From: a virus
Reading direction: 5' to 3' (one strand)
Length of the DNA: 34,331 nucleotides
Virus record (IMG/VR): IMGVR_UViG_3300002145_000105
Coordinates: 1 to 34,331 of that record
Shown here: positions 7,708-28,293 of the stretch, one piece after another
Position numbering within the stretch: the first letter of the stretch is position 1
How the letters are laid out: every line of letters begins with the position of its first letter
Program-made: the position numbers and the translations under genes
Notes under the pieces: generated by a model
Databases searched by the model: none
What the model was told of the DNA's origin: nothing
Seen by the model: only the letters and a program-made list of their open reading frames with translations

Positions 7708-8391
7708 ATGACTACTCCAAAAGGTTTAAGAACTCTCGCTGGAGCCCAAGCTTCAGCGCACTTGACATTCAACGAAGACGTTGTCTTGTTAGAAAACGGT
7801 GTAGGTGCGCTTTCCGTGTTAGATCGCGGACTGACGACTCCTGCAAGTCTCACTCCTTCAGAGGGTGACGTGTATATCCTTGCAGGCACCTCAGGCGACT
7901 GGGGTACTGCGACAAACAAAGTCCCTGCTACTGGAGACATCGCTGTCTATCAAAACGGTGGATGGATCTTTTACACTCCAGCTAGCGGGACTCTAGCCTA
8001 TATCGAGGATGAGAAGTTGTGGCTTGGGTATTCGCAAGACGCATGGCATCTGTTTTTAGACGATTGGCCTACAACTGAGACTTGGACCGGAAAGTATATC
8101 GGCTCTGAAAAGATCTATCGAAAACGAGTAGATTGCGGAGCTGGTCCTAATGCCACAACGAAAACAGTAGCTCATGGTACAGGCATGACGGCGGATACTC
8201 CTTTGCGAGCTTTCGGTTGGATGGGCACGACAACAGGAACTGTTATCGCCTTTCCTCTTCCTATCGCTCAGCTTGGCGGCCTAGGCCCAATCGTTGTTGA
8301 GTTCACTGTCCAAGCTACAAACATTGTTCTTCGCGCAAACACCAACGTCTCTATCTTCAACGTGTACATCGACTTGGAGTACTCCAAATGA
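7708..8391 (+). CDS. DUF2793-type tail protein, copy 1
   Basis: A 227-residue protein starting at the base after the preceding stop. The segment from about residue 42 (TTPASLTPSEGDVYILAG, a Gly-Asp-Trp turn, IAVYQNGGWIFYTPASG, then a Trp-ended strand) matches DUF2793, common after the host-contact gene in alphaproteobacterial phages and gene-transfer-agent-like regions. The C-terminal ~100 residues (from about WTGKYIGSEKIYRK) are a second beta-rich domain also present in the next gene. A role as tail fibre or receptor-binding subunit is inferred from position. The end overlaps the next gene by ATGA. Confidence 0.75.
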   Translation: MTTPKGLRTLAGAQASAHLTFNEDVVLLENGVGALSVLDRGLTTPASLTPSEGDVYILAGTSGDWGTATNKVPATGDIAVYQNGGWIFYTPASGTLAYIEDEKLWLGYSQDAWHLFLDDWPTTETWTGKYIGSEKIYRKRVDCGAGPNATTKTVAHGTGMTADTPLRAFGWMGTTTGTVIAFPLPIAQLGGLGPIVVEFTVQATNIVLRANTNVSIFNVYIDLEYSK

Positions 8392-9005
8392 TTAGTTTGT
8401 CTGCACCTTCAGTAATTGATACGATCGTAACTCCTCCGGGAAGCCCAGCAGAAGGCGATGCGTACATTGTCGCAGGAACTGGTACAGGCGATTGGTCTGG
8501 CTTAGATCAAACGATCGTCACCTACAATAGCGTTTGGCCAGCGAATAACGGATGGGTATCTGTCGTTCCTGCAAATGGTATGGCAGCGTGGAACGAAGCT
8601 GGTCGCTCTAGCAATGGCGAACTTATTGTCTACTCTGAGACCGAAGATGAGTGGTATCCTTTGCAGGATCGTTGGGACTACTCAGAGCATTGGACTGGTC
8701 GCTACTACCCTGGTGGAGAAAAGATCATGTCGAAAGTTGTCACTATGAGCACTTGGCCTAATGCGACGTCAAAGACTTGGTCTATTGGAGCTTCAGGAGC
8801 CATTGACTATACTGTGCCAGTCAACATCCAAGGTTCTTTGCGAACCACCAGTTCACCAAATGTTGCTTTCCCTATTCAGATCGCGTACTTAGCTTCTGGC
8901 ATACACTACGAGTTTCGTGTAGATAACGGAAATCTTCGCGTCGTAACGGTCTTTGACATGACAGCCTACCATGCAGAAGTCAGAATCGAATACGCTCTGG
9001 CTTGA
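8388..9005 (+). CDS. DUF2793-type tail protein, copy 2 (paralogue of the preceding gene)
   Basis: This 205-residue protein repeats the layout of its neighbour: a DUF2793 core (TPPGSPAEGDAYIVAGTGTGDW, then NNGWVSVVPANG and EWYPLQDRW) followed by the shared C-terminal domain (HWTGRYYPGGEKIMSK, WPNATSKTW). The first ~40 residues of copy 1, which carry the GAQASAHLTFNE segment usual at the DUF2793 N-terminus, are missing here. It therefore looks like a duplicated and trimmed copy, perhaps a second receptor-binding subunit. ATGA overlap with copy 1; last gene of the tail operon. Confidence 0.72.
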   Translation: MISLSAPSVIDTIVTPPGSPAEGDAYIVAGTGTGDWSGLDQTIVTYNSVWPANNGWVSVVPANGMAAWNEAGRSSNGELIVYSETEDEWYPLQDRWDYSEHWTGRYYPGGEKIMSKVVTMSTWPNATSKTWSIGASGAIDYTVPVNIQGSLRTTSSPNVAFPIQIAYLASGIHYEFRVDNGNLRVVTVFDMTAYHAEVRIEYALA

Positions 9006-13585: not shown

Positions 13586-14142
13586 AACGTACAGAGTGTC
13601 AGGATCTTACTGACCGTCTTTTTGCTGAGTGGAAGAAGCTTGAAGAGCAATACTTGCAACTCTACTCAGTTTTGATGGAAGTTGGTCCGCTAGTGAAAGA
13701 CAACAAATCCGCATTGCCAGATCTTGTAGATTTAGGCTTCGTATGTCGAGAAGTGGCAAAAGGGTCTGATGATATCCGCAAGGATGCTACATCCCACCAA
13801 GATCTTATCGGCAAAGTCATTGCAATGCGGCACACAAGAGACTCCATTGGCAAGGTGAACCCTGATATGAAGATCGTAGGGGAACTCGCCACTGGAAAGC
13901 CCGATGTCAAGCAACGGGCAGCTATCCCCAAAAGGGGCACACAAGAATACTCTGACTTATGTGCTCATTTTGGCGTGACCGAGGAGGCAGTGTCTTCCGG
14001 TCTCGTTTCTTTCCACTTTGTCAAAACCAGGGATTACGTAAGTGATCTCATGGCGGAAGGGCTTCCCCTTCCGAAAGGACTAGGTGGGATCACCTCAGAG
14101 TTTTCAACATCTTTCATTCGAAAATCAAATGGCAAAAAGTAA
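13579..14142 (+). CDS. Hypothetical protein, 187 aa
   Basis: Overlaps the upstream gene by 7 nt. The N-terminal ~95 residues are strongly helical and charged (AEWKKLEEQYLQLYSVL, then DDIRKDATSHQDLIGKVIAM). The C-terminal part contains a segment with helix-turn-helix-like spacing (EYSDLCAHFGVTEEAVSSGLVSFHFVKTRDY) and ends in a basic tail (RKSNGKK). It may be a DNA-binding accessory of the following putative ssDNA-binding protein and primase, but this is inference from composition and position only. Confidence 0.68.
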   Translation: MVERTECQDLTDRLFAEWKKLEEQYLQLYSVLMEVGPLVKDNKSALPDLVDLGFVCREVAKGSDDIRKDATSHQDLIGKVIAMRHTRDSIGKVNPDMKIVGELATGKPDVKQRAAIPKRGTQEYSDLCAHFGVTEEAVSSGLVSFHFVKTRDYVSDLMAEGLPLPKGLGGITSEFSTSFIRKSNGKK

Positions 14143-14152
14143 AAGGACTGAG

Positions 14153-14941
14153 ATGTCTACGGACATTGTGGAAGTGGACCCCGAATTCGCTTTCCTCACG
14201 GAGTACCAAGAAGAGGATAACTCTCTTGATAACTTGCAGCAGTATCGTCGTCCGCCAATCCTCAAGGTGATTCAAGGACTCACGTCTGATGACCTGAAAC
14301 TTGGTCGACCCAACGGCACCGTTATCAAACTTCCGGGTGCGGAAACGATCTGCAAGTTTGGCGACTCTTTCAAGGTTGTCCCGGTGTTCTCGTTTACGGA
14401 GTACCAACTCCGCCGAGATCGCAATGACAAGAGTGGCGGCCGAGTTATTGAGCGCAGCTTTGATCCTGGTTCTGAACTGGCGATGATGTGCAAAGGGCTG
14501 AAGACCAAGAAAGAAGGCGAGTATGAGCACGCCTTCAAAGAGGTTCTTTGCTTTGCCATTCTCATCTATGCTGAAACCGAGAAAACTGAAGAACTGGAGC
14601 CAGCACTTGTTACTTTCATGGGTGGAGATTTCACGACTGGCACCAACTGGGCCGGGATGATCTCTTCACGACGCATCGGTGGCAAGCCAGCTCCGCTTTG
14701 GAGTCAAGTTTGGGAGGCATCGGTACACAAGCAGCCCGGTAAGAAAGGCGACTGGATGCAGCTCGGCTTCTCCAACCCGGAAAGTGGCCCGTACATCACT
14801 CAAGAGGAAGCTCCTCTGTTCCGCGAACTGCATCTCCGTCTTGCGGAAGAGTTCAAAGAGAAGCGTATCATTGTCTCCGGTGACAATGATAGCGAAGGTG
14901 ACAGTGGCGAAGACAACGGGAAATACTCCGGCAATAACTGA
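14153..14941 (+). CDS. Putative single-stranded-DNA-binding / replication accessory protein
   Basis: ATG 14153 is chosen because AAAGGA at 14142-14147 gives it a good Shine-Dalgarno; ATG 14129 in the same frame is possible but has none. The product has 262 residues. The body is beta-rich with a conserved-looking aromatic core (FGDSFKVVPVFSFTEYQ, FMGGDFTTGTNWAGMI). The C-terminus is a short, strongly acidic, disordered tail (DNDSEGDSGEDNGKYSGNN), as in phage T7 gp2.5, T4 gp32 and bacterial SSB, where the tail recruits polymerase and primase. It sits directly before the primase-helicase gene. The assignment rests on the tail and the context, not on a recognised family. Confidence 0.6.
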   Translation: MSTDIVEVDPEFAFLTEYQEEDNSLDNLQQYRRPPILKVIQGLTSDDLKLGRPNGTVIKLPGAETICKFGDSFKVVPVFSFTEYQLRRDRNDKSGGRVIERSFDPGSELAMMCKGLKTKKEGEYEHAFKEVLCFAILIYAETEKTEELEPALVTFMGGDFTTGTNWAGMISSRRIGGKPAPLWSQVWEASVHKQPGKKGDWMQLGFSNPESGPYITQEEAPLFRELHLRLAEEFKEKRIIVSGDNDSEGDSGEDNGKYSGNN

Positions 14942-14984: not shown

Positions 14985-17816
14985 ATGATTGAACAAATCC
15001 AAGCTCTGGCCGAACTAGAAAGAATCGGCATCACTTTCCAGCCAACATCTGAGAATGAGGTTCGCCTAAAATGCCCTGTTCATGAAGATAAATCGCCGAG
15101 CTTGAGCCTAAACACAGAGACGAACCTTTGGATTTGCCAAGCTTCGTCCTGTAAGGCAAAAGGGGACATCATCAGCCTCCTCTCTCACTTCCTAAAGTGT
15201 AGCAGAAATACAATCAAAGATGATCTTAGCACTCGATATGACCTAAAGCAGGTCAAAGAGATTCGGCCCGAGACCATCGAAAAATACCACGCAGAAGTTT
15301 TCCACGCCGGACCACTCCTGCAAGCCCTTCGAGACCGTGGAGTAACTGATGAGATGCTCTACTACTCACGGATAGGGTTCTGGGCTGGGCGAATCACCAT
15401 TCCGGTGCGAGACTTGCAGAGTCGTGTCGTAAACGTTCGACGCTACCTCCCAGGTGCGCCAGGACCTGAGAAGTTCAAGAACACTCCAGGGTACGGTAAG
15501 CCTCAGCTTTATCAAATTGAGGACACTCAGTTCCCTGACATCTGGCTATGCGGCGGCGAGCTAAAAGCTCTGGTCGCAGGCTTCCTGCTCCGGCCTAACA
15601 ACTCGGGTGCCCTTGCAGTATCGGCAGGCGAGGGTGCATGGGTCTCAGAATGGAACCAGCTCTTCGTGGGTAAGCGCGTCTATATTTGTATGGACGCTGA
15701 CAAAGCGGGAGTCACAGCGTCTTACAAGCTCGCTATGCGGCTATACCGTACGTGTGAAGTCTTTATTATTAGGTTGCCACTGGACCTAGAAAAGCATCCA
15801 AAAGGTGATCTAAACGACTACATCGCTACTGAAAAGGCGACAGCTCAAGACCTTCTTCGTTTGCAAGAAGAAGCTGAGCCTTTTATCCCCAAAGAAGATG
15901 CAGAGATTCCAGATGAAGCCGTAGAGGTTCACGTCTCTGATGCGCTCAATCAGCACAATATCGGTAAGCGTGTGAGGTTCTCTGCTGTCGTCGCAATGAA
16001 GGCACAAGACCCACACTTGATCCCTAAAGAGGTGTCTTTCACGTGCTCTAAGAACGAAAAGAACTGCACGAGTTGTCCTCTATATCTTATTGAAGGACCC
16101 GATGACGACTCGCCCGCAAAGGTGACTCTTAGCCCAGTTTCGCAAGGGCTACTTTCGCTTATCGATACTCCTGCAAGTCAACAGCAGAACGGTATCGCCA
16201 GCGCCTTGCGAGTTCCTAAGTGTAGGTCTGTAGAGTTCTTTCCTCTTTCCTACAGTTCAGTACGGGATGTAAGACTTACTCCGATTCTATCTATCTCAGA
16301 ACAGTCTGGTAGTGACGTGCTTTTGCCAGGGTTCTGTGTCGACACAGAGATCGAGCTAAACTCTCCAAACATCTTTGAAGCTGCCCTTTGGCCTCATCCT
16401 AAAGACCAAAAGGCAACGCTTCTAATCTGCAAGGCAGAGCAGACCGCGGACTCCATGGTGAACTACGTCCCTAGAGACTTAGAAGATCTGGAAGTTTTCC
16501 AACCGAAAGAGTGGACTAAGGCGTCCTTGCAAGACAAACTAAAGAACATCTATGATGATCTAGTCTACAATGTGACGTCTATTCGCCAGCGACAAGACAT
16601 GCATCTTGTCATTGACTTGACGTTCCATTCAGTGCTGTTTTTCAAGTTCGATGGGCGTATCAGAAACGGTTGGTTGAATTCGCTAATCGTTGGCGATTCA
16701 TCACAAGGCAAGACAGAAGCTTCAAGCCTGCTGAAGGACCATTACGGTCTAGGCATACGAGTGGAGTGTAAGAACGCTTCACTTGCAGGTCTAGTAGGCG
16801 GGCTTCAGCAAATCGGAACTCGTTGGTTTGTATCATGGGGTATCATCCCTACACAAGACCGTCGTTTAGTAATCCTTGAAGAAGTGAAAGGTGCTCCTAT
16901 CGAGCTGCTCGGTAAACTTACGGATATGCGCTCTTCAGGCATTGCAGAGATTCCAAAGATCGAGCATCGGAAAGCTTCTGCAAGGACCAGGCTTCTATTC
17001 ATCAGTAACCCTCGCTCTACAAAACGGGTGACAGCTTATCCGTTTGGTGTATCTGCGATTACTGAGCTTATTGGAGGATTGGAGGACGTACGTCGTTTTG
17101 ATATCGCCTACATCGTTTCAGCAGATGAGGTTAGTGCGGAAGAGATCAACCGAAAAAATACTCTGAAAGAGGCTGTAGAACACAAGTTTACCTCTTCGCT
17201 CTGCCGTAGACTAATCCTTTGGGGCTGGACCCTTAGCCCTAATCAGATCGAGTTTAGCGACGAAGCAGTTGATGAGATTTTGCGAATCTCTAACGTCGCT
17301 TGTGAGAAGTTTACAGAAGCTATCCCGCTCATCGACCGAGGAACTGTACGTTTGAAACTAGCGAGGCTATCTGCGGCCCTTGCAGTTCGTACCTTCAGTT
17401 ATGAAGGAGATAAGCTGCGGATCCGAAAATGTCACGTAGAGACAGTCTGGGAGCTACTAGACGAAGTGTACTCCAAACCGTTGTTTGGGTACCTAGACTA
17501 CTCCCAAGCCCAAAAGCGGTCTTCTGTCATGGGGGACCGCTCTAAGATTGTCAACTTTATCAAAGACCTTCGCTATCCTTCTGGCTTCGCAGAAAACCTT
17601 ATGCTACAAGATGAGGTTGTTATGCAAGATATCATGGACTGGGAGGCTGTTGAAAAAGACCAAGCACACACGATTCTCTCTTTTCTGGTAAGAAATCGTG
17701 CGTTACACCGTAAGCGAAACTCCTACCAGAAAACAGCACCCTTTATCCAGCTGCTCAAAGAGCTGGAAGGAAAACTTTCAGAAGAAAATGAGAGAGAATC
17801 TAAATACGAAGGCTAG
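14985..17816 (+). CDS. Fused DNA primase (CHC2-TOPRIM) and MCM-like AAA+ helicase
   Basis: A 943-residue multidomain replication protein. Residues ~28-70 form a CHC2 zinc-binding domain (C30, H33, C51, C56). A TOPRIM domain follows, with the GGELKALVAG segment and the acidic motif MDADKAG (D237, D239). From about residue 325 there is an OB-like region with a Cys cluster (C354, C361, C364). The C-terminal half is an AAA+ ATPase: Walker A GDSSQGKT (570-577), Walker B LVILEE (628-633), then LTDMRSSGIAEIPK and a sensor segment RLLFISNPRS, which resembles the MCM order (start, DEF-type Walker B, KAG-type hairpin, ANP sensor). It would unwind DNA and prime synthesis at the fork. Phage primase-helicases usually carry a RecA-fold (DnaB/gp4) helicase, so the MCM-like half is unusual. 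Confidence 0.85.
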   Translation: MIEQIQALAELERIGITFQPTSENEVRLKCPVHEDKSPSLSLNTETNLWICQASSCKAKGDIISLLSHFLKCSRNTIKDDLSTRYDLKQVKEIRPETIEKYHAEVFHAGPLLQALRDRGVTDEMLYYSRIGFWAGRITIPVRDLQSRVVNVRRYLPGAPGPEKFKNTPGYGKPQLYQIEDTQFPDIWLCGGELKALVAGFLLRPNNSGALAVSAGEGAWVSEWNQLFVGKRVYICMDADKAGVTASYKLAMRLYRTCEVFIIRLPLDLEKHPKGDLNDYIATEKATAQDLLRLQEEAEPFIPKEDAEIPDEAVEVHVSDALNQHNIGKRVRFSAVVAMKAQDPHLIPKEVSFTCSKNEKNCTSCPLYLIEGPDDDSPAKVTLSPVSQGLLSLIDTPASQQQNGIASALRVPKCRSVEFFPLSYSSVRDVRLTPILSISEQSGSDVLLPGFCVDTEIELNSPNIFEAALWPHPKDQKATLLICKAEQTADSMVNYVPRDLEDLEVFQPKEWTKASLQDKLKNIYDDLVYNVTSIRQRQDMHLVIDLTFHSVLFFKFDGRIRNGWLNSLIVGDSSQGKTEASSLLKDHYGLGIRVECKNASLAGLVGGLQQIGTRWFVSWGIIPTQDRRLVILEEVKGAPIELLGKLTDMRSSGIAEIPKIEHRKASARTRLLFISNPRSTKRVTAYPFGVSAITELIGGLEDVRRFDIAYIVSADEVSAEEINRKNTLKEAVEHKFTSSLCRRLILWGWTLSPNQIEFSDEAVDEILRISNVACEKFTEAIPLIDRGTVRLKLARLSAALAVRTFSYEGDKLRIRKCHVETVWELLDEVYSKPLFGYLDYSQAQKRSSVMGDRSKIVNFIKDLRYPSGFAENLMLQDEVVMQDIMDWEAVEKDQAHTILSFLVRNRALHRKRNSYQKTAPFIQLLKELEGKLSEENERESKYEG

Positions 17817-18219
17817 AGCATTCCACAAGAAACTAGGACTCCTTACGGATTACCCTAGTTTTGATGGATACATGTTCACTACTTTGATGGGACCCGTGTT
17901 CAATGTCCTTACACAGTATGCTGAAAATGCAAAACACTCAGATGAGTTCATTGAACGACGAACTAGCCTCCTTGCTGAAGAGCTTGCAGAGTTTATGGAG
18001 GCCCTAGTTGATGGAGATCGGGAAAAGATCGCCAAAGAAGGTGCGGATCTCATGTACGTCATCGTCGGTACTTTAGATATTCTAGGTATCGATGCAGAAG
18101 CAGCGTTCGATTTAGTCCATAAGTCGAACATGACAAAGTCTTACGGATACGACATTACAAACCGAGATAAAGGACCGGACTATCAAGAGCCGGACATGAA
18201 GCAATGCATCATCAAGTAG
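17788..18219 (+). CDS. MazG-like nucleotide pyrophosphohydrolase
   Basis: A 143-residue all-alpha NTP pyrophosphohydrolase. The metal-binding signature is EExxE (E64, E65, E68 in AEELAEFME) followed by ExxD (E84, D87 in EGADLMYV), and the C-terminal segment SNMTKSYGYDI...KGPDYQEPD is typical of phage MazG-like and PRA-PH-like proteins. The enzyme would hydrolyse dNTPs or (p)ppGpp-type nucleotides and could remove unwanted canonical nucleotides. ATG 17788 is chosen because earlier in-frame codons are deep inside the primase gene; the overlap with the primase is 29 nt. It opens the nucleotide-metabolism run. Confidence 0.82.
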   Translation: MRENLNTKARAFHKKLGLLTDYPSFDGYMFTTLMGPVFNVLTQYAENAKHSDEFIERRTSLLAEELAEFMEALVDGDREKIAKEGADLMYVIVGTLDILGIDAEAAFDLVHKSNMTKSYGYDITNRDKGPDYQEPDMKQCIIK

Positions 18220-19022
18220 TCTCTACAACACAGATCTGGGAAGAAGCAGTTCAAGCGATCATGCACGAAGGCGGGGAAGTCCCGTCTCGCAATGGTCCCA
18301 CAAAAGAACTGCAAGGGTTACTGTTCCCGGAACTGGATCCAACAGCGCCTTTCATCTATACCCGAGGGATGAGTTTCAAGTACGCTTGTGGTGAGACTCT
18401 TTGGTACTTGATGGGGTCTGATCGGCTCCACTGGATTGAAAAGTTTGCACCTTCGTACGGCCGATTCAGTGATAACGGTAAGACGCTGAATGGTGCCTAC
18501 GGTCCTAAGATCCGAAAAGGTATCCCGATTGTAATCGCCATGCTGAAGCAAGACCCAGCTACTCGCCGGGCCGTAATCCCGCTTTACGACATGACAAATC
18601 TAGGGCAAGACTCCAAGGACATCCCGTGTACGTTACACTTGCAGTTCTTGATTCGCGGAAGTAAACTGTTCATGATGGTTCACATGCGCAGTAACGACTT
18701 GTTTCTTGGATTCCCCTACGATGTTTTCGCCTTCTCGGTTATTCAGTGCCTGATTGCAAAGTACCTTCACATTGAAGTTGGGACTTATGCACACTTTGTC
18801 GCTTCTGGACACCTCTACGTTTCTGACTTCAAGAAACTGGCCAACACGCCTCTGCAAACTCCTCCGCCAGACATGCCGTACCACTTCGTAGAGGATGGTG
18901 TTCTTCATGACATCAGCTCTCAGTATAATGACTTTGAAGCTGACGCAACAAAGCTTGAATGTGGGGATACGACAATCATGCCACCTATTTGGCGATGGCT
19001 TATGGAGGGCGCGGAGCTGTGA
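18204..19022 (+). CDS. Thymidylate-synthase-fold enzyme, probably a dCMP-type hydroxymethylase or methylase
   Basis: A 272-residue member of the thymidylate synthase/pyrimidine hydroxymethylase family. The nucleophile is Cys142 (IPCTLHLQF), the phosphate-binding Arg162 lies in HMRSND, and the late GHLY motif holds the conserved His and Tyr. At the base-recognition position, thymidylate synthases have Asn (E. coli N177, GLPFN); here it is Asp173 (GFPYDVF), as in T4 dCMP hydroxymethylase (GFRND), and the MRSND/GF context also matches T4 gp42. The family knowledge is that Asn favours dUMP and Asp favours dCMP. The E. coli Trp80 position appears to be Tyr. The product would be 5-hydroxymethyl-dCMP or 5-methyl-dCMP; dTMP remains possible. 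It overlaps the MazG gene by 16 nt and the kinase gene by 28 nt. Confidence 0.85.
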   Translation: MHHQVVSTTQIWEEAVQAIMHEGGEVPSRNGPTKELQGLLFPELDPTAPFIYTRGMSFKYACGETLWYLMGSDRLHWIEKFAPSYGRFSDNGKTLNGAYGPKIRKGIPIVIAMLKQDPATRRAVIPLYDMTNLGQDSKDIPCTLHLQFLIRGSKLFMMVHMRSNDLFLGFPYDVFAFSVIQCLIAKYLHIEVGTYAHFVASGHLYVSDFKKLANTPLQTPPPDMPYHFVEDGVLHDISSQYNDFEADATKLECGDTTIMPPIWRWLMEGAEL

Positions 19023-19474
19023 TTATCATTGAAGGGTCTGACCATCTTGGTAAGACTACTTACTCACAGAAGGTGCAGAAGAACGGGTTCAAATATCGTC
19101 ACATGAGTAAACCGGAACCAGACTTCGATTATCGAAGTTATTCTTGGGGAGGGAACTATGTGTTCGACCGGCATTTTCTTGGGGGCTACGTTTACGGATA
19201 TGTGTTAGAGCTGCATCCTGTAGTGCCAGATTTCACTGACGCTTTCCGCATGAACTGTGACTTATTGAAATCTTCTAAATCCCAACTTGTGATTATCTAT
19301 ACCACAGACTTGTCTTGGTACTCTGATCATCTAGATAAGGGTAAGCCGGAGATGTTCAACAAAGAGCAGATCATGGCGGCTAATGATGTTTTCCGTTGGC
19401 TGGCCCAACACTATCTGGCAAGAAGAAGTCTTGCCATCGACATCCGTAACGGGAAATTCTATAATGCTCATTAG
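18995..19474 (+). CDS. Deoxynucleoside monophosphate kinase-like P-loop protein
   Basis: A 159-residue thymidylate-kinase-like protein. The P-loop EGSDHLGKT is at residues 13-21, directly after a hydrophobic beta strand (AVIIIEG). A DR-type motif (VFDRHF) at about residue 57 matches the conserved DR(Y/W/H) of dTMP kinases, and a hydrophobic Walker-B-like strand (LVIIYTTD) follows. It is shorter than host dTMP kinases (about 210 aa), as is usual in phages. Located just after the TS-fold enzyme, it could phosphorylate the modified dNMP. ATG 18995 is favoured because it places the P-loop near the N-terminus as in homologues; ATG 18959 is an alternative. Confidence 0.8.
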   Translation: MAYGGRGAVIIIEGSDHLGKTTYSQKVQKNGFKYRHMSKPEPDFDYRSYSWGGNYVFDRHFLGGYVYGYVLELHPVVPDFTDAFRMNCDLLKSSKSQLVIIYTTDLSWYSDHLDKGKPEMFNKEQIMAANDVFRWLAQHYLARRSLAIDIRNGKFYNAH

Positions 19475-19844
19475 GGAAAAATTGATGAATCGCCTCCTCC
19501 GCTTGCAGTCGATGGTCCATACAGACTGCAAGCGGAAGCTCGTTATCGCCATAACAGACCAACATGAGGCCCCTAAAGTGAATCGTGCCAAAGGGGAGTG
19601 TAAGAATATTGTCGGCGGTTGTGGCTGTACCCATGCAGAAGAGCAGTTCCACTACGATGATAGAGTCCAAGTAGTTGGGGTATCGTACTGGCCTTGCCTG
19701 GAATGTGCAACTCACATGTTGAAAGTGTTCCCTAACCTGGAGGCAGTTTTCTATCTTCACGGAGCAGAGCATCACCCAGATGGCCCTGAAATTCTTAGAC
19801 ACAATGGAGTCAAATGCGAACTCTTCATAACGGCCACCTCTTAG
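19464..19844 (+). CDS. Zinc-dependent dCMP/cytidine deaminase-like enzyme
   Basis: A 126-residue member of the cytidine/deoxycytidylate deaminase superfamily. The zinc and catalytic motif HAE is at residues 57-59 (CTHAEEQ, proton shuttle Glu59) and the second zinc motif PCLEC at 77-81 (C78, C81). Extra cysteines (C22, C46, C53, C55) recall the second zinc site of some phage dCMP deaminases. Typical dCMP deaminases convert dCMP to dUMP; in a phage carrying a dCMP-modifying enzyme it may instead remove unmodified dCMP. ATG 19464 is preferred over the more upstream ATG 19383, which lies deep inside the kinase gene. It overlaps the polymerase gene by 31 nt. Confidence 0.82.
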   Translation: MLIREKLMNRLLRLQSMVHTDCKRKLVIAITDQHEAPKVNRAKGECKNIVGGCGCTHAEEQFHYDDRVQVVGVSYWPCLECATHMLKVFPNLEAVFYLHGAEHHPDGPEILRHNGVKCELFITATS

Positions 19845-21700
19845 CTGAGACTGTAGAGGACCTGCCGAATACAGCAGGCTACAAAACGCTCTTCCTCGAC
19901 TTTGAGACAAGCGGTTTAGATCCTTACATGGGATCTATTGTCTGCGGAGTAGCATTAGTTTGCGATTCAGAGAAGCAGGCTATCTATGTCCCTGTAAATC
20001 ACCATTTTGGACCTAAGCTCCCTAAAGAAAACTTCGACCGCTGGTTGGAAGAGACCTTCCAAGGTAAAGAACGATGGGTGAATCATAACGTCAAGTTTGA
20101 CGCCCATTTCGCAACAAAGAACGGTGTGCCAGTTGAAAAGATTCCTCAGCTGATTGACACTTTACCTCTTTCGCGTATGCACTACACCAATCGTAGAACA
20201 TACGGATTGAAACCTCTTTGCAGAGATTGGCTTAGAATGCCGATGGATGAAGAGCGTGCCCTACAACCTTATTTCAAACAGTACGGGAAGAAGTTTGGAC
20301 ATGCTCCTGTGCCTTCAGATATTGAGGCTCCGTACGCTTGCATGGACGTAATCGGAAACCGTCGGTTGATGTCCTTCTTAGTTCAAAAGCGAGACCCAAG
20401 ACTGAAGCTAGTTTGGGATATTGAGAATCAGCTAACGTCTACGTTGTTTCGTATGGAGCAACGCGGGATGCGTATTGACATTCTTGAAACTAAGAAACAG
20501 TACCTGAAGACCTTACGAATTCTTGTGGAGCTTCAAGAGCAGCTTGCAGAATTCACTAACGGTGAGGAGTTTGTAGACTCGAACAAAATCCTTTTGGAGA
20601 TGCTCGTTATTCAATGGGGTCTACCTATTGTCGGGTACAATGAGCAAGATGATGGAAGAAAGACCCCTTCTTTCGACAAAGAAGCTTTGGCCCTGTATGC
20701 AGTCCATCCGCAAGTGCTTGGCGAACCTAAGCTGAAACGGCTTATTGAACTCATTAGAGAGTATCGCCACCACTCTCAGTTGAGTTCTTTGTACCTGGAA
20801 CCGTACCAGAACCTTGCAGATGAGAACGGTGACCTACACACGAGTTACACCCAAGTGATTCGTACTGGACGGATGTCTGCAAAGCATCCTAACGCTCAGC
20901 AACTCAATAAGTGGGCGAAGAGCCTCATTGTTCCTCGCCCTGGACGTGCGTTTATATCTGCAGACGCTAGTCAGTTGGAGTATCGCTGGATTGGGGATAC
21001 AATCGAGGAAGAGAAAATCATCCATGCCTACCAGACGGATCCTAAAACAGACTTCCACACGCTTGCAGCACAGTTGATTCAGTCTTCCCGTAGCTCGGGT
21101 AAGACCATGAACTTTACTCTTAGTTTCGGTGCCGGTAAGGCTAAGGTTATTTCGTACTTGAAAAAGGACAAAGAGATTCTGGAGCGAATCAGCAAGCAGA
21201 CTTCTGACCCTAAAGAGTTTGAGGAACTCTGCAAGAAGGAGGCAGAGCGAATCTGGAGCACTTATCACCAAGAGTTCCCTAACCTGCACAAAGAGTCGAA
21301 AGCTGCAGAAGGGGCTGCTCGTAAGAACGGCTATATCGTGAACAAGTTTGGTCGCATTCGCCACTTGTTCCGTGATGAAACCTACAAGGCTTTCAACACG
21401 TACATTCAAGGTACAGCCAGTGACTATGTCAAATCTAGACTCGTTGCCCTGGACACGCAAGAGTTTTGGGATCTAGGGGTTTGGCCTCTTATCACCGTCC
21501 ATGACGAGATTGTTATGGAAGGTGATGTTGAAGCGATCGAAGATCCTTATGTTCAAAAACGGGTGCGAGAAGTCTTACAAGAGTGTCCTATCCCTTGTAA
21601 GATCCCACTTCTTTGGGATATCGGTTCTTCCCGCCTCAACTGGCGACAGGCTACGGTCAACTCAGACCATAACAAAAACGACGACCCTGTGCCGACCTAG
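19814..21700 (+). CDS. Family A (T7/Pol I-type) DNA polymerase with 3'-5' exonuclease
   Basis: A 628-residue replicative polymerase. Exonuclease motifs: ExoI FLDFETSGLD (D29, E31), ExoII VNHNVKFDAHF, ExoIII YACMDVIGNRRL. Polymerase motifs: A ISADASQLEYRW (D384), B RSSGKTMNFTLSFGAG (R426, K430), C TVHDEIVME (H563, D564, E565). There is no 5' nuclease domain, as in T7-type enzymes. At the position of E. coli Pol I Phe762 (T7 Tyr526) it has Phe434, predicting discrimination against dideoxynucleotides; the Pol I Tyr766 position is Phe438. It begins inside the deaminase gene and ends shortly before a GC hairpin, so it closes this operon. Confidence 0.95.
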   Translation: MRTLHNGHLLAETVEDLPNTAGYKTLFLDFETSGLDPYMGSIVCGVALVCDSEKQAIYVPVNHHFGPKLPKENFDRWLEETFQGKERWVNHNVKFDAHFATKNGVPVEKIPQLIDTLPLSRMHYTNRRTYGLKPLCRDWLRMPMDEERALQPYFKQYGKKFGHAPVPSDIEAPYACMDVIGNRRLMSFLVQKRDPRLKLVWDIENQLTSTLFRMEQRGMRIDILETKKQYLKTLRILVELQEQLAEFTNGEEFVDSNKILLEMLVIQWGLPIVGYNEQDDGRKTPSFDKEALALYAVHPQVLGEPKLKRLIELIREYRHHSQLSSLYLEPYQNLADENGDLHTSYTQVIRTGRMSAKHPNAQQLNKWAKSLIVPRPGRAFISADASQLEYRWIGDTIEEEKIIHAYQTDPKTDFHTLAAQLIQSSRSSGKTMNFTLSFGAGKAKVISYLKKDKEILERISKQTSDPKEFEELCKKEAERIWSTYHQEFPNLHKESKAAEGAARKNGYIVNKFGRIRHLFRDETYKAFNTYIQGTASDYVKSRLVALDTQEFWDLGVWPLITVHDEIVMEGDVEAIEDPYVQKRVREVLQECPIPCKIPLLWDIGSSRLNWRQATVNSDHNKNDDPVPT

Positions 21701-22192: not shown

Positions 22193-22959
22193 CCAAACTG
22201 CGACCCAAAGTTCATACTTACGATGGTCAGGACTATGTCCGGGCTTTTCGTAAGTATGACGGGCATCGCATCGGGGTGGTCAGTGACCGTGGTGTGCCTT
22301 TCTTCTTCGGTCGCAAGTCCCACGAACTGCTGCTTGGCGAGTTTGACTTTGCAGAAGCTCTGTTCAAGCTGCCTCACGGCACCATCTTGGATGGGGAACT
22401 GTTCTTACCTGGAGGTAGGTCTACTGACGTTCCTCACTATATCGCACAAGAGAAGCCGGGACTTGTTTATCGAGTCTTTGGAATCTACCAGTGGGGTGAC
22501 CAACTCATTAGGCACTGGGAAGACTACGACCGAATCTGCAAGGAAGCAAGGTTCAACGTTCAAGAGCCTGAGAAAATGCGAGACCGAGAAGAGTTACTAG
22601 ACTTAGCCAAAGAACTAGGTATCGAAGGTTTTGTTCTCAAGAACTGTCCTAGCCGAGAGTGGTATAAGTTGAAGCCGACTGAAACTGTCGATGCTGTTGT
22701 TGTCTGCCCTCTTTACGGGACTGGTCGCAACACCTACCGAGTAGGCTCAGTCGAGGTGACTTGCAGAATCAATGGGCGGCTACTCGCTGGTACCGTGAAA
22801 CTGCAAAGCGCAAAAGACCGAATTCCCTTCAAAAGTGACGCTTATGTTGGGCGTGTCTTAGAACTCCAACATGAGGGTATCACAAAACACAACCGATTCA
22901 AGTTCGCCCGTTTTATGCGATGGCGTGACGACAAACCTGCGGAGGAGTGCTACCAATGA
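22177..22959 (+). CDS. ATP-dependent DNA ligase
   Basis: A 260-residue nucleotidyltransferase/ligase. Motif I is KYDG with the AMP-accepting Lys26, motif III-like LVYRVFGIYQW lies near residue 105, motif IV is EGFVLK and motif V WYKLKP. The final ~75 residues (VDAVVVCPLYGTGRN to FMRWRDDK) form the OB-fold expected for a minimal phage ligase. It would seal nicks during replication or repair. The start is TTG 22177: GGAGGA at 22165-22170 is well spaced for it, and no in-frame ATG exists before the conserved motif I. Overlaps the next gene by ATGA. Confidence 0.88.
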   Translation: MFGQLTKLRPKVHTYDGQDYVRAFRKYDGHRIGVVSDRGVPFFFGRKSHELLLGEFDFAEALFKLPHGTILDGELFLPGGRSTDVPHYIAQEKPGLVYRVFGIYQWGDQLIRHWEDYDRICKEARFNVQEPEKMRDREELLDLAKELGIEGFVLKNCPSREWYKLKPTETVDAVVVCPLYGTGRNTYRVGSVEVTCRINGRLLAGTVKLQSAKDRIPFKSDAYVGRVLELQHEGITKHNRFKFARFMRWRDDKPAEECYQ

Positions 22960-23345
22960 AAACCTTGCTCCTTATTCGTGGAATCCCAAGTTCCGGCAAG
23001 AGTGAACTTGCCCGAGCTTTGGAAGGCCTCGGTGCAAAATGGTTTGAAGCCGACAAGTTTTACCCTGACAAGTTTGAACTTGGTCTTCTTGAAGAAGCGC
23101 ATCAATGGTGTGAAAAAGGTGTCAAAAAGGCGATGAAAAAGAGCCATCCTTTCATTGTCGTCTCTAACACTTTTATCAAGATTTGGTGGATGAGTCCTTA
23201 TAAAGAGCTGGCTGAAAAGTATGGCTATCGACTCCAAATCGTGGTCAAAGAGAAGCACCATAAAGGTCGCACTAAGTGGCCGATTCCTAAAGCAAAGCTC
23301 ACTGAGTACATTGACGGGTTCGAGTCCCGTCCCTGGAGTTCCTAA
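22956..23345 (+). CDS. P-loop (polynucleotide-kinase-like) kinase
   Basis: A 129-residue single-domain kinase. The Walker A GIPSSGKS is at residues 9-16, a FEADKFY motif (D35) follows, and the strand plus motif VVSNTFIKIWWMSPYKELAEKYGY matches the VVDNTN...W...PY..LA pattern of N4BP2/T4 PNK-type P-loop kinases. It sits one base before a gene whose product resembles the helical domain of 5-hydroxymethyl-dU DNA kinases, where P-loop kinase and helical domain are normally linked; the two may together phosphorylate hydroxymethylated bases in DNA (inference). ATG 22956, preceded by GGAGGA, is chosen over GTG 22947. Its 3' end contains a sequence identical in form to a tRNA T-arm (23314-23330). Confidence 0.78.
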   Translation: MKTLLLIRGIPSSGKSELARALEGLGAKWFEADKFYPDKFELGLLEEAHQWCEKGVKKAMKKSHPFIVVSNTFIKIWWMSPYKELAEKYGYRLQIVVKEKHHKGRTKWPIPKAKLTEYIDGFESRPWSS

Positions 23346-24172
23346 TGGGAAAAACTAACTACACCAATGGGAGTGCGACAGTAGATGACCTATTCTACTG
23401 GATGAAAGAACGTCACAAGATTTACCTTGCTAAAAAGGTGGGTGAACCTTGGCCTTGGACAGAAGACCCGATCCTGCAAGAGTGGAAGTTCACCAACGTG
23501 TTCCGCCAGTTGGATAAGGGTACGGTCGCTTTGATTGATATGTTGGCGGGAGCGACTAACTACGAGTTGATCCTCGCCAATACCGTTTGGTATCGCTTGT
23601 TCAACCGTTATGAGCATGCGACTGACATTGGTTTCTGCAACTCTTTTGAGGAGCTTCAATCACGTATGCGTGCTGTGCGTGATTCCGGTAAGAAGGTCTT
23701 TACGGGAGCTCACATGACGTGGGCTCCAGCCAAAGTCTGCAAGGTTGAAGCTTACCTTGGAAGCTGTAAACTCTTCTTTGATGGGCACGGTAGAGACTAC
23801 TGTATGAACATCACAGATGAAGGCTTTGTGCAAGAACTCAAATACGCCTTTGACCAGCTCTTAGCCATGAAAGTACCAGGGATTGGTCCTTTCATTGCTT
23901 ATGAGATCGTAAGTGATCTGCGCTGGACTTTGCTTACAAAAGCACATGACATCAACACTTGGGCCAATATCGGTCCAGGCTGCAAACGTGGGTTGGAACG
24001 TCTTGGGATGGAAGTACATCTTGACAGCCTGCGACATTTACTTTCAATAACCCCAGACCTAGGTCGTCCCCTAGAACTTCGTGAAATTGAGCACTCCCTT
24101 TGTGAATTCGACAAATACCAACGAGTCAAAACGGGCGCCGGAAGGCCTCGAGGAAGATATCAACATGAGTGA
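23345..24172 (+). CDS. HMUDK helical-domain-type / aGPT-pyrophosphorylase-like DNA modification protein
   Basis: A 275-residue protein whose N-terminal segment FYWMKERHKIYLAKKVGEP and PWPWTEDPILQEWKFTNVFR (about residues 17-55) is the hallmark of the family called 5-hmdU DNA kinase helical domain, grouped with putative alpha-glutamyl/putrescinyl-thymine pyrophosphorylases. A helix-hairpin-helix-like VPGIGPFIAYEIVSDLRW lies near residues 175-193. Proteins of this group work in phage pathways that build hypermodified thymidine from 5-hydroxymethyluracil after replication. Its ATG shares a base with the stop of the P-loop kinase. Whether it is an enzyme or a DNA-reading partner of the kinase cannot be told from sequence. 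Confidence 0.78.
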   Translation: MGKTNYTNGSATVDDLFYWMKERHKIYLAKKVGEPWPWTEDPILQEWKFTNVFRQLDKGTVALIDMLAGATNYELILANTVWYRLFNRYEHATDIGFCNSFEELQSRMRAVRDSGKKVFTGAHMTWAPAKVCKVEAYLGSCKLFFDGHGRDYCMNITDEGFVQELKYAFDQLLAMKVPGIGPFIAYEIVSDLRWTLLTKAHDINTWANIGPGCKRGLERLGMEVHLDSLRHLLSITPDLGRPLELREIEHSLCEFDKYQRVKTGAGRPRGRYQHE

Positions 24173-24398: not shown

Positions 24399-24780
24399 AG
24401 ACGGTATTCTCGTCTTGAAGAACGATACTGAAACAATCGAACAGCTGGACTTTGTTGGGGATCTTATCCTACGACATCCTAAAAGCCGGGATTTCTTTAT
24501 CGAAGAGTACCAAGCGGGTTACTTAGTATCTCGCTTCGGTCTTATCACTAACCCGGAGATTTTCAATACAAAAGATGAGGCTGAATTCGGGTTGACCTGT
24601 GCAGTAGCGACTTTAGACCTTGTAGAGGGTAAGTCACTTTCCAGCTCTTTCACCAAAGATAATGGTGAACAGATTTTCATTCTACGTTCAAAACTAGGAC
24701 ACATCTATGTCTATTCAAAAGGAAGTGGTCGCTATGGCTACACAAAGGATCTTAATGAAGCCTGGACAAAAACCGATTGA
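24376..24780 (+). CDS. Hypothetical protein, 134 aa
   Basis: GTG 24376 is favoured since GGAGGT at 24360-24365 is well placed; ATG 24349 in the same frame would lengthen it by nine residues. The sequence begins STYLLVEDGILVLKND and is mixed alpha/beta with no Cys pairs or membrane segment. The C-terminal part (FILRSKLGHIYVYSKGSGRYGYTKDLNEAW) is aromatic and basic. No family recognised. Its 3' end overlaps the glycosyltransferase-like gene by 47 nt. Confidence 0.6.
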   Translation: MSTYLLVEDGILVLKNDTETIEQLDFVGDLILRHPKSRDFFIEEYQAGYLVSRFGLITNPEIFNTKDEAEFGLTCAVATLDLVEGKSLSSSFTKDNGEQIFILRSKLGHIYVYSKGSGRYGYTKDLNEAWTKTD

Positions 24781-25519
24781 GGTTTTTATCCCTACACGGG
24801 GACGTCGAGACAATCAGATCACCATCAATGAACTGGACTGCTCCAAGTTCAAAGTATGGGTTGTGCATGAACCTGAAGAGCGCCCATATGACTTGCCGGA
24901 TCATGTAGAGTCATTGGTCTACCACGGCGGAGGCGGTCTCAGCGCCAAGCGGGACTTCATTTACGCTTTCGCCAAAGATCGAGATGTCATCTGTGTCCAG
25001 ATTGATGATGATTGCAGGATCTACCGCCGAGAGGATGGTGCTGGCAGCTATCTGCAAAAGCAGAGCGACATCAGCGAACTGCTTTGCATGATTCAGTTGG
25101 CCGTTAGTGAAGGATACCTCCACGGAGGCATTAGCCAACGAGCTGGAAACAATCGCGAACCTGCAAACATGAAGGAGAACGCGAAAGTAGTATGCTTCAT
25201 GTGGCATTACGGAGTAGACGTCTTCTTTGGCGAGACTCTTGTTATGGCCGATTACAACACGACTCTCGCTTTGCTGACTTCGGGCTACCCAAATCTTGTG
25301 TTTTTCGAGTGGTGTTGCAACCAGAGCTCTGGATACAAAGGTGGATGCGCTCTTTACCGTACAAAAGAGATGGTGAAACAAGTTGCCGAGTACCTAGAGA
25401 AGAAGTACCCTGGGATTGTCACAGCGGAGGTGAAGTACACCAAAGGTAAAGGAGTCTTTGGAGGGAAAAGAACTGACGTCCGAGTTCAGTGGAAAAAGGC
25501 TTTCAAGGAGTCTCGCTGA
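24734..25519 (+). CDS. GT-A-fold glycosyltransferase-like protein (TET-associated glycosyltransferase type)
   Basis: A 261-residue putative nucleotide-sugar glycosyltransferase. The N-terminal IEVFIPTRGRRDNQIT strand-loop, GGGLSAKRDFIYAFA segment and acidic IDDDC (D91-D93, the DxD-type metal site) give a GT-A Rossmann half. GGISQRAGNNR, MADYNTTLALLTSGYPNLVF and GGCALYRT plus the end motif TDVRVQWKKAF match my recollection of the TET-associated glycosyltransferase family, proposed to put sugars on oxidised or hydroxymethylated bases in phage DNA. The start at ATG 24734 has AGGAAG nearby; ATG 24707 and 24755 are alternatives. With a hydroxymethylase-like enzyme upstream, glycosylation of 5-hydroxymethylpyrimidine is the natural hypothesis. 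Confidence 0.72.
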   Translation: MATQRILMKPGQKPIEVFIPTRGRRDNQITINELDCSKFKVWVVHEPEERPYDLPDHVESLVYHGGGGLSAKRDFIYAFAKDRDVICVQIDDDCRIYRREDGAGSYLQKQSDISELLCMIQLAVSEGYLHGGISQRAGNNREPANMKENAKVVCFMWHYGVDVFFGETLVMADYNTTLALLTSGYPNLVFFEWCCNQSSGYKGGCALYRTKEMVKQVAEYLEKKYPGIVTAEVKYTKGKGVFGGKRTDVRVQWKKAFKESR

Positions 25520-27011: not shown

Positions 27012-27415
27012 AATTCCATCAAAAACTTGAACAGCGGATCAAAAAAGAGTTCCCTGACGTTGCCTCCGTTCGTTGTCTGCTAGGTGTCCAAAAGGACTCT
27101 CGTTTTGTCGACTACTATGACAAAAACTCCAATAAGCATACCATCCATTTTCATGTAGACGTCGACAAGGCGCTGAAAATGGAGAAGTGGTTCTACTTGA
27201 CAGGCTGGGACCATGTTGTGGAGTTTGATCCTAAAGAACTTGCCAAGATTGAAGGCGAGGACTACGTCACTGTGTCGGTGTCCCGTCTGCAAGAGCTAGT
27301 TGGAGAGCTTGAAAAGGCTAAAGAACTGCTTGCAACAGCTCTGATCATGTACCCAGGCTTGAAAGTCTACGAAGGCTGGTACAATGAATACGTCAATCGG
27401 GTGGCGAACAAATGA
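27008..27415 (+). CDS. Hypothetical protein, 135 aa
   Basis: ATG 27008 overlaps the previous stop. The first ~65 residues alternate strands and a helix with His-rich HTIHFHVDVDKAL; the C-terminal half is a helix (VSVSRLQELVGELEKAKELLATALIMYPG) typical of a dimer or scaffold coiled coil. I do not recognise a family. The stop overlaps the glycosyltransferase-like ATG (ATGATGA). Confidence 0.62.
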   Translation: MKFHQKLEQRIKKEFPDVASVRCLLGVQKDSRFVDYYDKNSNKHTIHFHVDVDKALKMEKWFYLTGWDHVVEFDPKELAKIEGEDYVTVSVSRLQELVGELEKAKELLATALIMYPGLKVYEGWYNEYVNRVANK

Positions 27416-28293
27416 TGAAAATCGCCCTTATCACCAAAGGTCACATCCCGCGCATCAAAGCGATGGACTGGATTCAGGACCTTGGACGTGAAATCATCAT
27501 CTTTGTCCACAACGACATCGATATTGTGAAACTCCGCCAAGTTTGGCCGAATCATACGTATGTCGCCCACCAAATCAATGAAGGAATCAGCTCTATTGCG
27601 CTGATTAGAGACTTTGTTGACGACTACATGGGCGATTGGTACATCACGGTTGATGATAACGTAGAAAAACTCACTGGACTTAGTCCTTTCAGCGACTGGG
27701 ACCCGAAAGAGTGGAACTTTGACTTCAGGGAGTTTGAGAAAGTACTCACTCCGGACGAAATCAATGAGTACCTTGACGAACTGTATGAACAATGCATCTA
27801 TTTTGGCAACACAATGGGTGGATTCACCGACATGCGAAACGGCTTTTTTCGCAAAACCAAGTGGAACTACTGGAACTACATCAAGACTCAGGTCGCCGTC
27901 GTCAAAGGTGGCATCCCTTGGTGTCAATGGAGACCAATAGTTTCTTCTGACCTCGTTAGGTCAGTTTCAGAAGTTGTTCAAAACGGATCCATTTGCATGA
28001 ATAAATGGGTCTGTACTCACAAAGCATTCTACCAGGAGGGTGGAATCGGCTCTTTGGCCGATCGCCTCCCCACGATGCTGCAAACTTATGATAGACTCCT
28101 TGAACTCTACCCTGACCTATTGAAGGTCAAACACTCCTCGACACATGGCAGACCAAAACTCTACTTCGCAAAGCAATCCTGGAACACAGTCAATCGTTGG
28201 CGTAAAGAAAAGGACTGGACAGATCGTACCATTCGACCATCAGAGAATTCATTCGGCGGTGCAAAAGGCTATTGGGACTCCACTCCCTTCTAA
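27412..28293 (+). CDS. Second GT-A-type glycosyltransferase-like protein
   Basis: A 293-residue protein with a GT-A-like N-terminal half: IALITKGHIPRIKAMDWI, the strand GREIIIFVH, then ALIRDFVDDYMGDWYITVDDN, where D81-D82-N83 stands in the DxD metal position after a hydrophobic strand. Later motifs (MGGFTDMRN, AVVKGGIPW, CTHKAFYQEGGIGSLADR) recall phage DNA-modification glycosyltransferases, but similarity to the 24734 gene is limited to general layout. It may add a second sugar or act on another base. Its last 149 nt are also the first part of the ribonucleotide reductase gene in another frame, an unusually long overlap. Confidence 0.6.
   Translation: MMKIALITKGHIPRIKAMDWIQDLGREIIIFVHNDIDIVKLRQVWPNHTYVAHQINEGISSIALIRDFVDDYMGDWYITVDDNVEKLTGLSPFSDWDPKEWNFDFREFEKVLTPDEINEYLDELYEQCIYFGNTMGGFTDMRNGFFRKTKWNYWNYIKTQVAVVKGGIPWCQWRPIVSSDLVRSVSEVVQNGSICMNKWVCTHKAFYQEGGIGSLADRLPTMLQTYDRLLELYPDLLKVKHSSTHGRPKLYFAKQSWNTVNRWRKEKDWTDRTIRPSENSFGGAKGYWDSTPF

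Follow-up and report, generated by a model that had tools for sequence, protein, structure and literature searches.

Genes of the locus

The window, i.e. the whole 34,331-nucleotide stretch of DNA analysed here (IMG/VR virus record IMGVR_UViG_3300002145_000105), is a fragment of a tailed phage with tail genes at its left end. These are followed by genes for a SNF2-type helicase, a primase, a MazG-type hydrolase, P0001, a dNMP-kinase-like protein, a deaminase-like protein, PolA, DNA ligase, a small P-loop protein, a PF18723 protein, a TAGT glycosyltransferase and ribonucleotide reductase. The genes discussed below are:

17698..18219, plus strand: P0005, MazG/PRA-PH-type nucleotide pyrophosphohydrolase, overlapping the start of P0001 (PF01503, 1.1e-13; DR2231 MazG-like family, 1.9e-9)
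18204..19022, plus strand: P0001, thymidylate-synthase-fold protein, predicted dCMP 5-hydroxymethylase (PF00303, 2.3e-26; best PDB match MilA, 4.2e-34)
18959..19474, plus strand: P0006, P-loop dNMP-kinase-like protein (sequence motif EGSDHLGKTT)
19383..19844, plus strand: P0007, dCMP/cytidine-deaminase-like protein (motif HAEE...PCLEC)
19814..21700, plus strand: family A DNA polymerase, PolA (PF00476, 2.9e-39)
22947..23345, plus strand: P0003, small P-loop kinase/ATPase (PF13671 AAA_33, 2.4e-7)
23345..24172, plus strand: P0004, PF18723 HMUDK_hel / aGPT-PPlase1-type protein with a DNA-glycosylase-like fold (PF18723, 7.8e-42)
24707..25519, plus strand: P0002, TAGT-family glycosyltransferase (PF20691, 5.4e-8; phrog_842 beta-glucosyl-HMC-alpha-glucosyltransferase, 8.6e-24)
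27412..28293, plus strand: P0008, possible second glycosyltransferase-like protein (PF20691 only 0.037; BLASTP 1e-40 to an ORF of contig L096)
28145..30142, plus strand: phage ribonucleotide reductase (phrog_367, 1.3e-84)

P0005 is predicted to supply the dNMP substrate of P0001, and P0006 to be the kinase for the modified dNMP. P0006 has no Pfam match, and the homologous ORF in L098, a contig whose own enzyme has Asp at the position of Asp173 in P0001 (Asp-type), matches Thymidylate_kin at E 0.001, under the Pfam cut-off; the L098 homolog of P0007 matches PF00383 (2.7e-8), and the true start of P0007 is probably internal to the ORF. The profile matches of the two putative tailoring proteins exceed the curated cut-offs (144 bits vs 25 for PF18723 on P0004, 33.5 vs 27.5 bits for PF20691 on P0002, in which the DDD motif is conserved). 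P0003, whose stop codon overlaps the start of the P0004 gene (TAATG), is a possible DNA-kinase partner; we considered it as a 5-hmdU kinase and rejected this assignment, as it matches AAA_33 only, with no match to PF18748, and its similarity to the kinase of Microbacterium phage Golden is limited to the Walker motif. Elsewhere in the window, the region 30006-30518, after the ribonucleotide reductase, shows a weak match to nucleoside 2-deoxyribosyltransferase (PF05014, 1.8e-4, under the cut-off), and two adjoining ORFs at 7708-9005 match the same PHROG families (unknown/tail-fibre type) and are perhaps duplicated.

P0001 is a divergent member of the thymidylate synthase superfamily

The ORF at 18204-19022 is complete, encodes 272 aa and contains no internal stops. 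Its match to PF00303 (93 bits vs a cut-off of 24.3) places it in the thymidylate synthase superfamily, and a profile search found no other PF00303 gene in the 34,331-base virus record, which is a fragment, so that a second hydroxymethylase could sit outside it. P0001 retains the full catalytic set of the family (E64, Y99, R121, C142, R162, S163, D165, H203, Y205), with only about 31-42% identity to any relative. A profile search of genome contigs returned no relatives of P0001, and those in viral contigs were gathered by searching with alignments of closer proteins; the ThyA and T4 gp42 proteins used for alignment were taken from GenBank records.

The AlphaFold model of P0001 has a pLDDT of 82.5 and a pTM of 0.83, with C-terminal residues 227-248 of low quality. 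Its top structural match is MilA (Z 26.7, rmsd 2.8 A, 259 residues aligned, 33% identity), above both the thymidylate synthases (Z about 22-23) and the RB69-type structures 9iqc (Z 22.9, 22% identity) and 9iqu (Z 22.3). In a tree of 60 enzymes, to be taken with moderate weight owing to its long branches, P0001 groups with MilA and with phage enzymes that share its Asp173 (support 87 and 88). In the comparison with ThyA, T4 gp42 and MilA that the preliminary description had proposed, the register of Asp173 held, and T4 gp42 fell on a separate branch of the tree. The divergence of P0001 and its poorly modelled residues, like the fragmentary state of the contig, count against the dCMP hydroxymethylase reading developed below.

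Asp173 occupies the pyrimidine-selecting position

The segment of P0001 that carries Asp173 reads HMRSNDLFLGFPYD. The diagnostic codons of the gene are:

18564..18566, plus strand: Arg121 (MilA Lys133), with Ser163 a deoxyribonucleotide signature (PMC5175136)
18618..18620, plus strand: Asp139, three residues ahead of the Cys and equivalent to T4 Asp145, a signature of hydroxymethylation (alignment; PMC6400193)
18627..18632, plus strand: catalytic Cys142 and Thr143 (ThyA Cys146-His147)
18690-18692, plus strand: Ser163 (MilA Ala176), deoxyribonucleotide signature with Arg121
18720..18722, plus strand: Asp173, the pyrimidine-selecting residue (ThyA Asn177, T4 Asp179, MilA Asp186; from alignments)

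The GFPYD motif had initially been aligned with GLPFN of ThyA (N177) and GFRND of T4 gp42 (D179). This register is secure because the spacing from the phosphate-binding Ser/Ala to the selecting residue is identical, exactly 10 residues, in all four enzymes compared (counted from S163 in P0001, S167 in ThyA, S169 in T4 gp42 and A176 in MilA), which puts Asp173 in gapless register with T4, MilA and ThyA. One MAFFT alignment placed a one-column gap in T4 at the selecting position; the constant spacing and a second alignment settle the matter. The resemblance of MRSND in P0001 to T4 gp42 is likewise a real match.

That Asp selects cytosine in this family, as the preliminary description held, agrees with the literature: the cytosine-nucleotide enzymes T4 gp42, MilA and BcmA keep the equivalent Asp, and uracil-type enzymes have Asn (PMC5175136). 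The substitution D179N in T4 gp42 lowers kcat by up to about 3600-fold (PMC6400193), and the MetaGPA study of 433 environmental sequences found that positions 177 and 147 distinguish cytosine-modified from unmodified contigs, being the two positions most strongly associated with the former (PMC8670742). Among 175 relatives collected here, a set that takes in overlapping loci of the same contigs as well as related sequences, the catalytic Cys is followed by Thr in 32/32 sequences with Asp at the selecting column, and by Asn in 137/139 of those with Asn. Removal of duplicates left 21 Asp-type and 111 Asn-type sequences with the 173/143 pairing unchanged. Because D173 and T143 covary in all 32 relatives, Asp173 is not a chance substitution. 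The Asn/Asn pairing is broken in L200 (contig of L083), where Thr follows the Cys of an Asn-type enzyme (GASGIN). The Asn/Asp rule itself is already known at metagenome scale (PMC8670742), and P0001 as such adds one enzyme to a known type.

At the positions where canonical thymidylate synthases have Asn (ThyA 177), His (147) and Leu (three before the Cys), P0001 has Asp173, Thr143 and Asp139, so that a plain thymidylate synthase label would indeed mask a probable role in dCMP metabolism. The dCMP substrate first predicted from Asp173 is now supported by the cytosine-type residues 173 and 143, by the deoxy-type pair S163/R121 and by MilA as the nearest structure, and we consider it very likely that P0001 uses dCMP.

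Sugar preference and reaction product

MilA raises the alternative that P0001 is a CMP 5-hydroxymethylase giving a ribonucleotide-derived product, as MilA is nearest to it in both sequence and structure. This is hardly credible: the ribose-preference residues Ala176/Lys133 of MilA are replaced in P0001 by Ser163/Arg121, the deoxy-type pair; a MilA double mutant carrying Ser/Arg prefers dCMP (PMC5175136); and the gene context of P0001 is that of DNA replication.

The product is addressed by D139, an acidic residue three positions before the catalytic Cys, where E. coli ThyA has Leu. The equivalent Asp145 of T4 gp42 activates water, and D145N abolishes 5hm-dCMP formation (PMC6400193). Exchange of Asn for Asp is enough to convert thymidylate synthase into an enzyme that methylates dCMP (Liu and Santi 1992, as cited in PMC8670742), so that formation of 5-methyl-dCMP, as for phage Xp12 or the N229D variant of L. 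casei thymidylate synthase, has to be weighed; we give it very little credence in view of the hydroxymethylation residue D139 and of the TAGT enzyme encoded nearby, which requires a hydroxyl to glycosylate.

The Asp/Asn rule alone cannot tell hydroxymethylation from the reaction of RB69-type phages, in which a thymidylate-synthase homolog acts as dCMP hydroxylase and gives rise to 5-hydroxy-cytosine (PMC13390438), and other residues are needed. The RB69 enzyme, ORF048, shares both the selecting Asp and the Thr that follows the Cys, and the structures 9iqc and 9iqu, which contain FAD and dCMP, match the P0001 model well (see above). At P0001 positions 139, 165, 169 and 205, however, ORF048 (the one RB69-type sequence compared) has Glu, Asn, Val and Phe, whereas P0001 has the folate-enzyme residues Asp, Asp, Gly and Tyr; of these, D165 corresponds to the cofactor-pocket residue Asp169 of ThyA. 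Moreover, P0001 is nearer to MilA than to 9iqc in both Z-score and identity. Because of these folate-enzyme residues we retain hydroxymethylation as likelier, and regard an FAD-dependent dCMP 5-hydroxylase (5-hodCMP synthase) with 5-hydroxy-dCMP as product as very unlikely.

One feature of the T4 enzyme is missing: P0001 has Gly97-x-Tyr99 in place of Ser94-x-Tyr96, and T4 Ser94 is counted in the hydroxymethylase signature (PMC6400193), which speaks against the hydroxymethylase reading. A Ser/Thr two residues ahead of the catalytic-pocket Tyr defines T4-type enzymes, but Gly is usual at this position among the phage hydroxymethylases compared, including other PYD-type enzymes and the Asn-type enzyme of M6, a phage with 5hmU-derived bases. 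Because Gly97 replaces Ser94, we assign P0001 to the MilA/PYD branch rather than to that of T4 gp42, as a predicted dCMP hydroxymethylase. The fold, the catalytic set, the cytosine-, deoxy- and hydroxymethyl-type residues and the gene set can be read directly from the sequence, and a hydroxymethyl product appears likely.

Neighbouring genes and the possibility of a uracil-based pathway

In the MetaGPA study, PRA-PH, dCMP deaminase and DNA ligase domains are associated with modified contigs or co-occur there with thymidylate synthase (PMC8670742), and all three kinds are present in the window. In contigs L098 and L099 the MazG gene is likewise followed by those for an Asp-type enzyme, a kinase and a deaminase, and a homolog of P0008 adjoins the Asp-type cassette of L096. 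The PF20691 protein of T6-like phages likely adds a second glucose to glucosyl-5hmC (PMC13390438). We nevertheless rejected TAGT as proof of 5hmC, since in phages LuckyBarnes and ctUhy936 it accompanies Asn-type enzymes, and the TAGT set consists predominantly of Asn-type loci. As both TAGT and PF18723 also adjoin Asn-type enzymes, the gene context of P0001 is mixed and not simply cytosine-related.

P0001 could accordingly be read as a dUMP 5-hydroxymethylase despite its Asp173, with the PF18723 protein, kinase and TAGT tailoring 5hmU as in M6 or, by prediction, LuckyBarnes. PF18723 takes its name from the helical domain of 5-hmdU DNA kinase, and in M6 the related protein is encoded within a hypermodified-thymine cassette, as described for the M6-like phage SN1 (PMC9476957). 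The PF18723 protein of M6, whose thymine is hypermodified, is 33% identical to P0004; LuckyBarnes combines an Asn-type enzyme with two TAGTs and a PF18723 homolog; and 80 of 148 deduplicated loci are Asn-type with PF18723 and TAGT. This predominance of Asn-type (dUMP-type) enzymes beside PF18723 and TAGT counts against the cytosine reading. So does the MazG structure nearest to P0005, DR2231, a dUTPase-type enzyme. Yet M6, LuckyBarnes and the other enzymes beside PF18723 proteins of the Asn lineage have Asn, not Asp; the loss of activity in T4 D179N shows that the residue matters (PMC6400193); and the PF18723 partners of Asp-type enzymes form a clade of their own. A search of 19 whole records also yielded no PF00303 gene besides that of the Asp-type enzyme, so that a second enzyme of the uracil type on the contig does not account for the PF18723 neighbour, with the caveat of fragmentary contigs. 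We therefore hold the dUMP alternative to be unlikely.

A separate clade of PF18723 proteins accompanies Asp-type enzymes

To survey the partners, four viral-contig scans were reduced to 148 deduplicated loci, in which the hydroxymethylase type and the neighbours were read. Most PF18723 loci are Asn-type: besides the 80 with TAGT, 9 Asn-type loci have PF18723 with an M6-type kinase and 17 have it with neither; PF18723 accompanies an Asp-type enzyme in 12 loci, with TAGT in 9/12. The commonest arrangement is PF18723, TAGT and an Asn-type hydroxymethylase, usually without PF18748 (e.g. L085 9959-13399, L060 1215-4649). Asp-type enzyme, PF18723 and TAGT stand close together in that order in eight contigs (gaps of at most 2.8 kb) and are spread across 7 kb in the window.

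The PF18723 partners of Asp-type enzymes form one clade that includes the window, with Golden as a separate second case, which implies 2 changes of type vs 11.5 with shuffled labels. Contigs L013 and L018 carry PF18723 proteins resembling the Asp-type group, and their Asp-type enzymes are located elsewhere on the contig. In the final tree, which includes these two and omits Golden and other long-branch rows, all 13 rows of the clade are Asp-type (support 100/96), amounting to 12 distinct sequences, since L012 duplicates L098. An Asp-type hydroxymethylase is thus combined with a PF18723 protein in the window and in 12 further contig rows. The TAGT tree does not place the window protein with the main Asp-type TAGT clade, but its starred branches force only one change.

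A homolog of the PF18748 5-hmdU DNA kinase occurs in two of the Asp-type records. In one of these two (L012 12316-16432) a Radical SAM/SPASM protein, a B12-binding radical SAM protein and a PF18748 kinase lie near PF18723. No PF18748 match was obtained in 31/37 whole records searched, a set that includes M6-type loci. As PF18748 is missing throughout the record in the majority of contigs that carry both PF18723 and TAGT, a fixed link between PF18723 and this kinase is improbable. PF12851 (TET/JBP) gave no match in 15 records, nor in the control.

The model of P0004 (pLDDT 90.9) gave no significant match with Foldseek alone. Its closest structural match is the PaMx11 5-PmdU glycinyltransferase (Z 11.1, a moderate value for a helical protein; rmsd 3.8 A, 211 residues aligned), followed by archaeal 8-oxoguanine glycosylases. 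The PF18723 protein may present the base to the glycosyltransferase, or may transfer an amino acid. A Glu-to-Gln change at residue 55 of PF18723 seemed at first a base-recognition switch (Gln in 11/11), but was discarded, as the Asp-type contigs L013 and L018 keep Glu. His91 of P0004 (window 23345-24172) is shared by all 13 PF18723 proteins of the Asp-type clade and by one Asn-type locus; it is possibly a base-specificity residue, as a single-lineage trait.

A comparable arrangement occurs in cultured Microbacterium phage Golden (L009, NC_042117), whose gp47 (13892-14698), annotated as ThyX thymidylate synthase, matches the PDB entry 1b49 (9e-29) and is, judging from its sequence, a dCMP hydroxymethylase of the T4 gp42 type. 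It is matched in 191 Microbacterium phage records, those listed being annotated as thymidylate synthase. The Golden genes for gp55, a P-loop kinase (PF18751), and gp54 (PF18723) share 8 bases (L009 16819-18289) and adjoin the Asp-type hydroxymethylase, i.e. a kinase and a PF18723 protein occur together in a cultured cytosine-type phage.

The consistent pairing of Asp-type enzymes with their own PF18723 clade is an association only, seen in one main lineage plus Golden. It suggests a cytosine branch of hypermodification, and is the new element of this work, for which we found no description in the available literature. As a tentative proposal, which we rate at somewhat less than an even chance, one PF18723 clade has moved from 5-hydroxymethyluracil to 5-hydroxymethylcytosine in step with the exchange of Asn for Asp in the hydroxymethylase, and builds hypermodified cytosines together with TAGT or a DNA kinase. 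A literature search, judged by title and abstract, returned no report on such a pathway, be it cytosine hypermodification or a 5hmC DNA kinase.

Proposed pathway and its implications

P0001 is probably a 5,10-methylenetetrahydrofolate-dependent dCMP 5-hydroxymethylase feeding 5hmC into the phage DNA; the substrate, the product, the order of steps and the protection we infer as follows. The MazG-type hydrolase would lower dCTP and supply dCMP, whose C6 would be attacked by Cys142, with Asp173 binding and protonating N3 of the cytosine. Folate would deliver the one-carbon unit, and a water held by Asp139 would add to the exocyclic methylene, yielding 5hmdCMP instead of dTMP. The dNMP-kinase-like neighbour P0006 could then raise 5hmdCMP towards the triphosphate, PolA would incorporate the 5hm nucleotide into DNA, and the TAGT glycosyltransferase and the PF18723 protein would further modify the 5-hydroxymethylcytosine and thereby shield the genome against restriction enzymes. 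That the tailoring steps act on cytosine we judge only slightly better supported than the contrary.

Under a thymidylate synthase annotation, the probable replacement or decoration of cytosine by this phage would go unnoticed. Hypermodification genes, known chiefly from work on thymine, here include a distinct clade that accompanies cytosine-type hydroxymethylases. From this pairing one would expect novel DNA bases, and novel enzymes that transfer glycosyl groups or amino acids to 5hmC, of interest for how phages evade restriction and for the labelling of DNA. The pairing also yields a checkable rule: the modified base should be the one indicated both by the residue pair 147/177 of the hydroxymethylase and by the clade to which its PF18723 partner belongs. 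As Golden is cultured, the question of a cytosine branch can be tested without uncultured phages.

Comparison with known systems

The pyrimidine hydroxymethylase of ctIqW946 (MW202657) is 42% identical to P0001, shares the PYD motif and lies in the same order of genes (MazG, Asp-type enzyme, kinase-like ORF, deaminase, PolA); ctIqW946 differs in that the record has no PF18723, and TAGT was not found within the stretch read. RB69 ORF048 and the 5-hodCMP synthase of phage HY126 (9iqc, 9iqu) share with P0001 the thymidylate synthase fold, the selecting Asp and the predicted dCMP substrate, but ORF048 is an FAD-dependent hydroxylase with different residues at positions 139, 165, 169 and 205. Phage M6, whose enzyme has PF18723/PF18748 kinase partners, resembles the window in the Asp three before the Cys, the PF18723 homolog and an annotated dCMP deaminase; its enzyme, however, has Asn both at position 173 and after the Cys, and it makes hypermodified thymine.

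T4 gp42 shares with P0001 the equivalents of Asp179 and Asp145, the Cys-Thr pair and the MRSND motif, and the T4 genome likewise encodes a dCTPase and glycosyltransferases. The similarity of the two enzymes is nevertheless short (35% over 71 aa), they lie on separate branches of the tree, T4 Ser94 is Gly in P0001, and the tailoring genes of T4 differ from those of the window. MilA, the CMP/dCMP 5-hydroxymethylase of mildiomycin biosynthesis (5b6d, 5jp9), is the nearest enzyme of solved structure in both sequence (4.2e-34) and fold, and has in common with P0001 the selecting Asp (D186), Thr after the Cys and Asp three before it. The two differ in the sugar-selecting pair, Ala176/Lys133 in MilA vs the deoxy-type Ser163/Arg121 in P0001, and in context, which is an antibiotic cluster for MilA and phage DNA replication for P0001.
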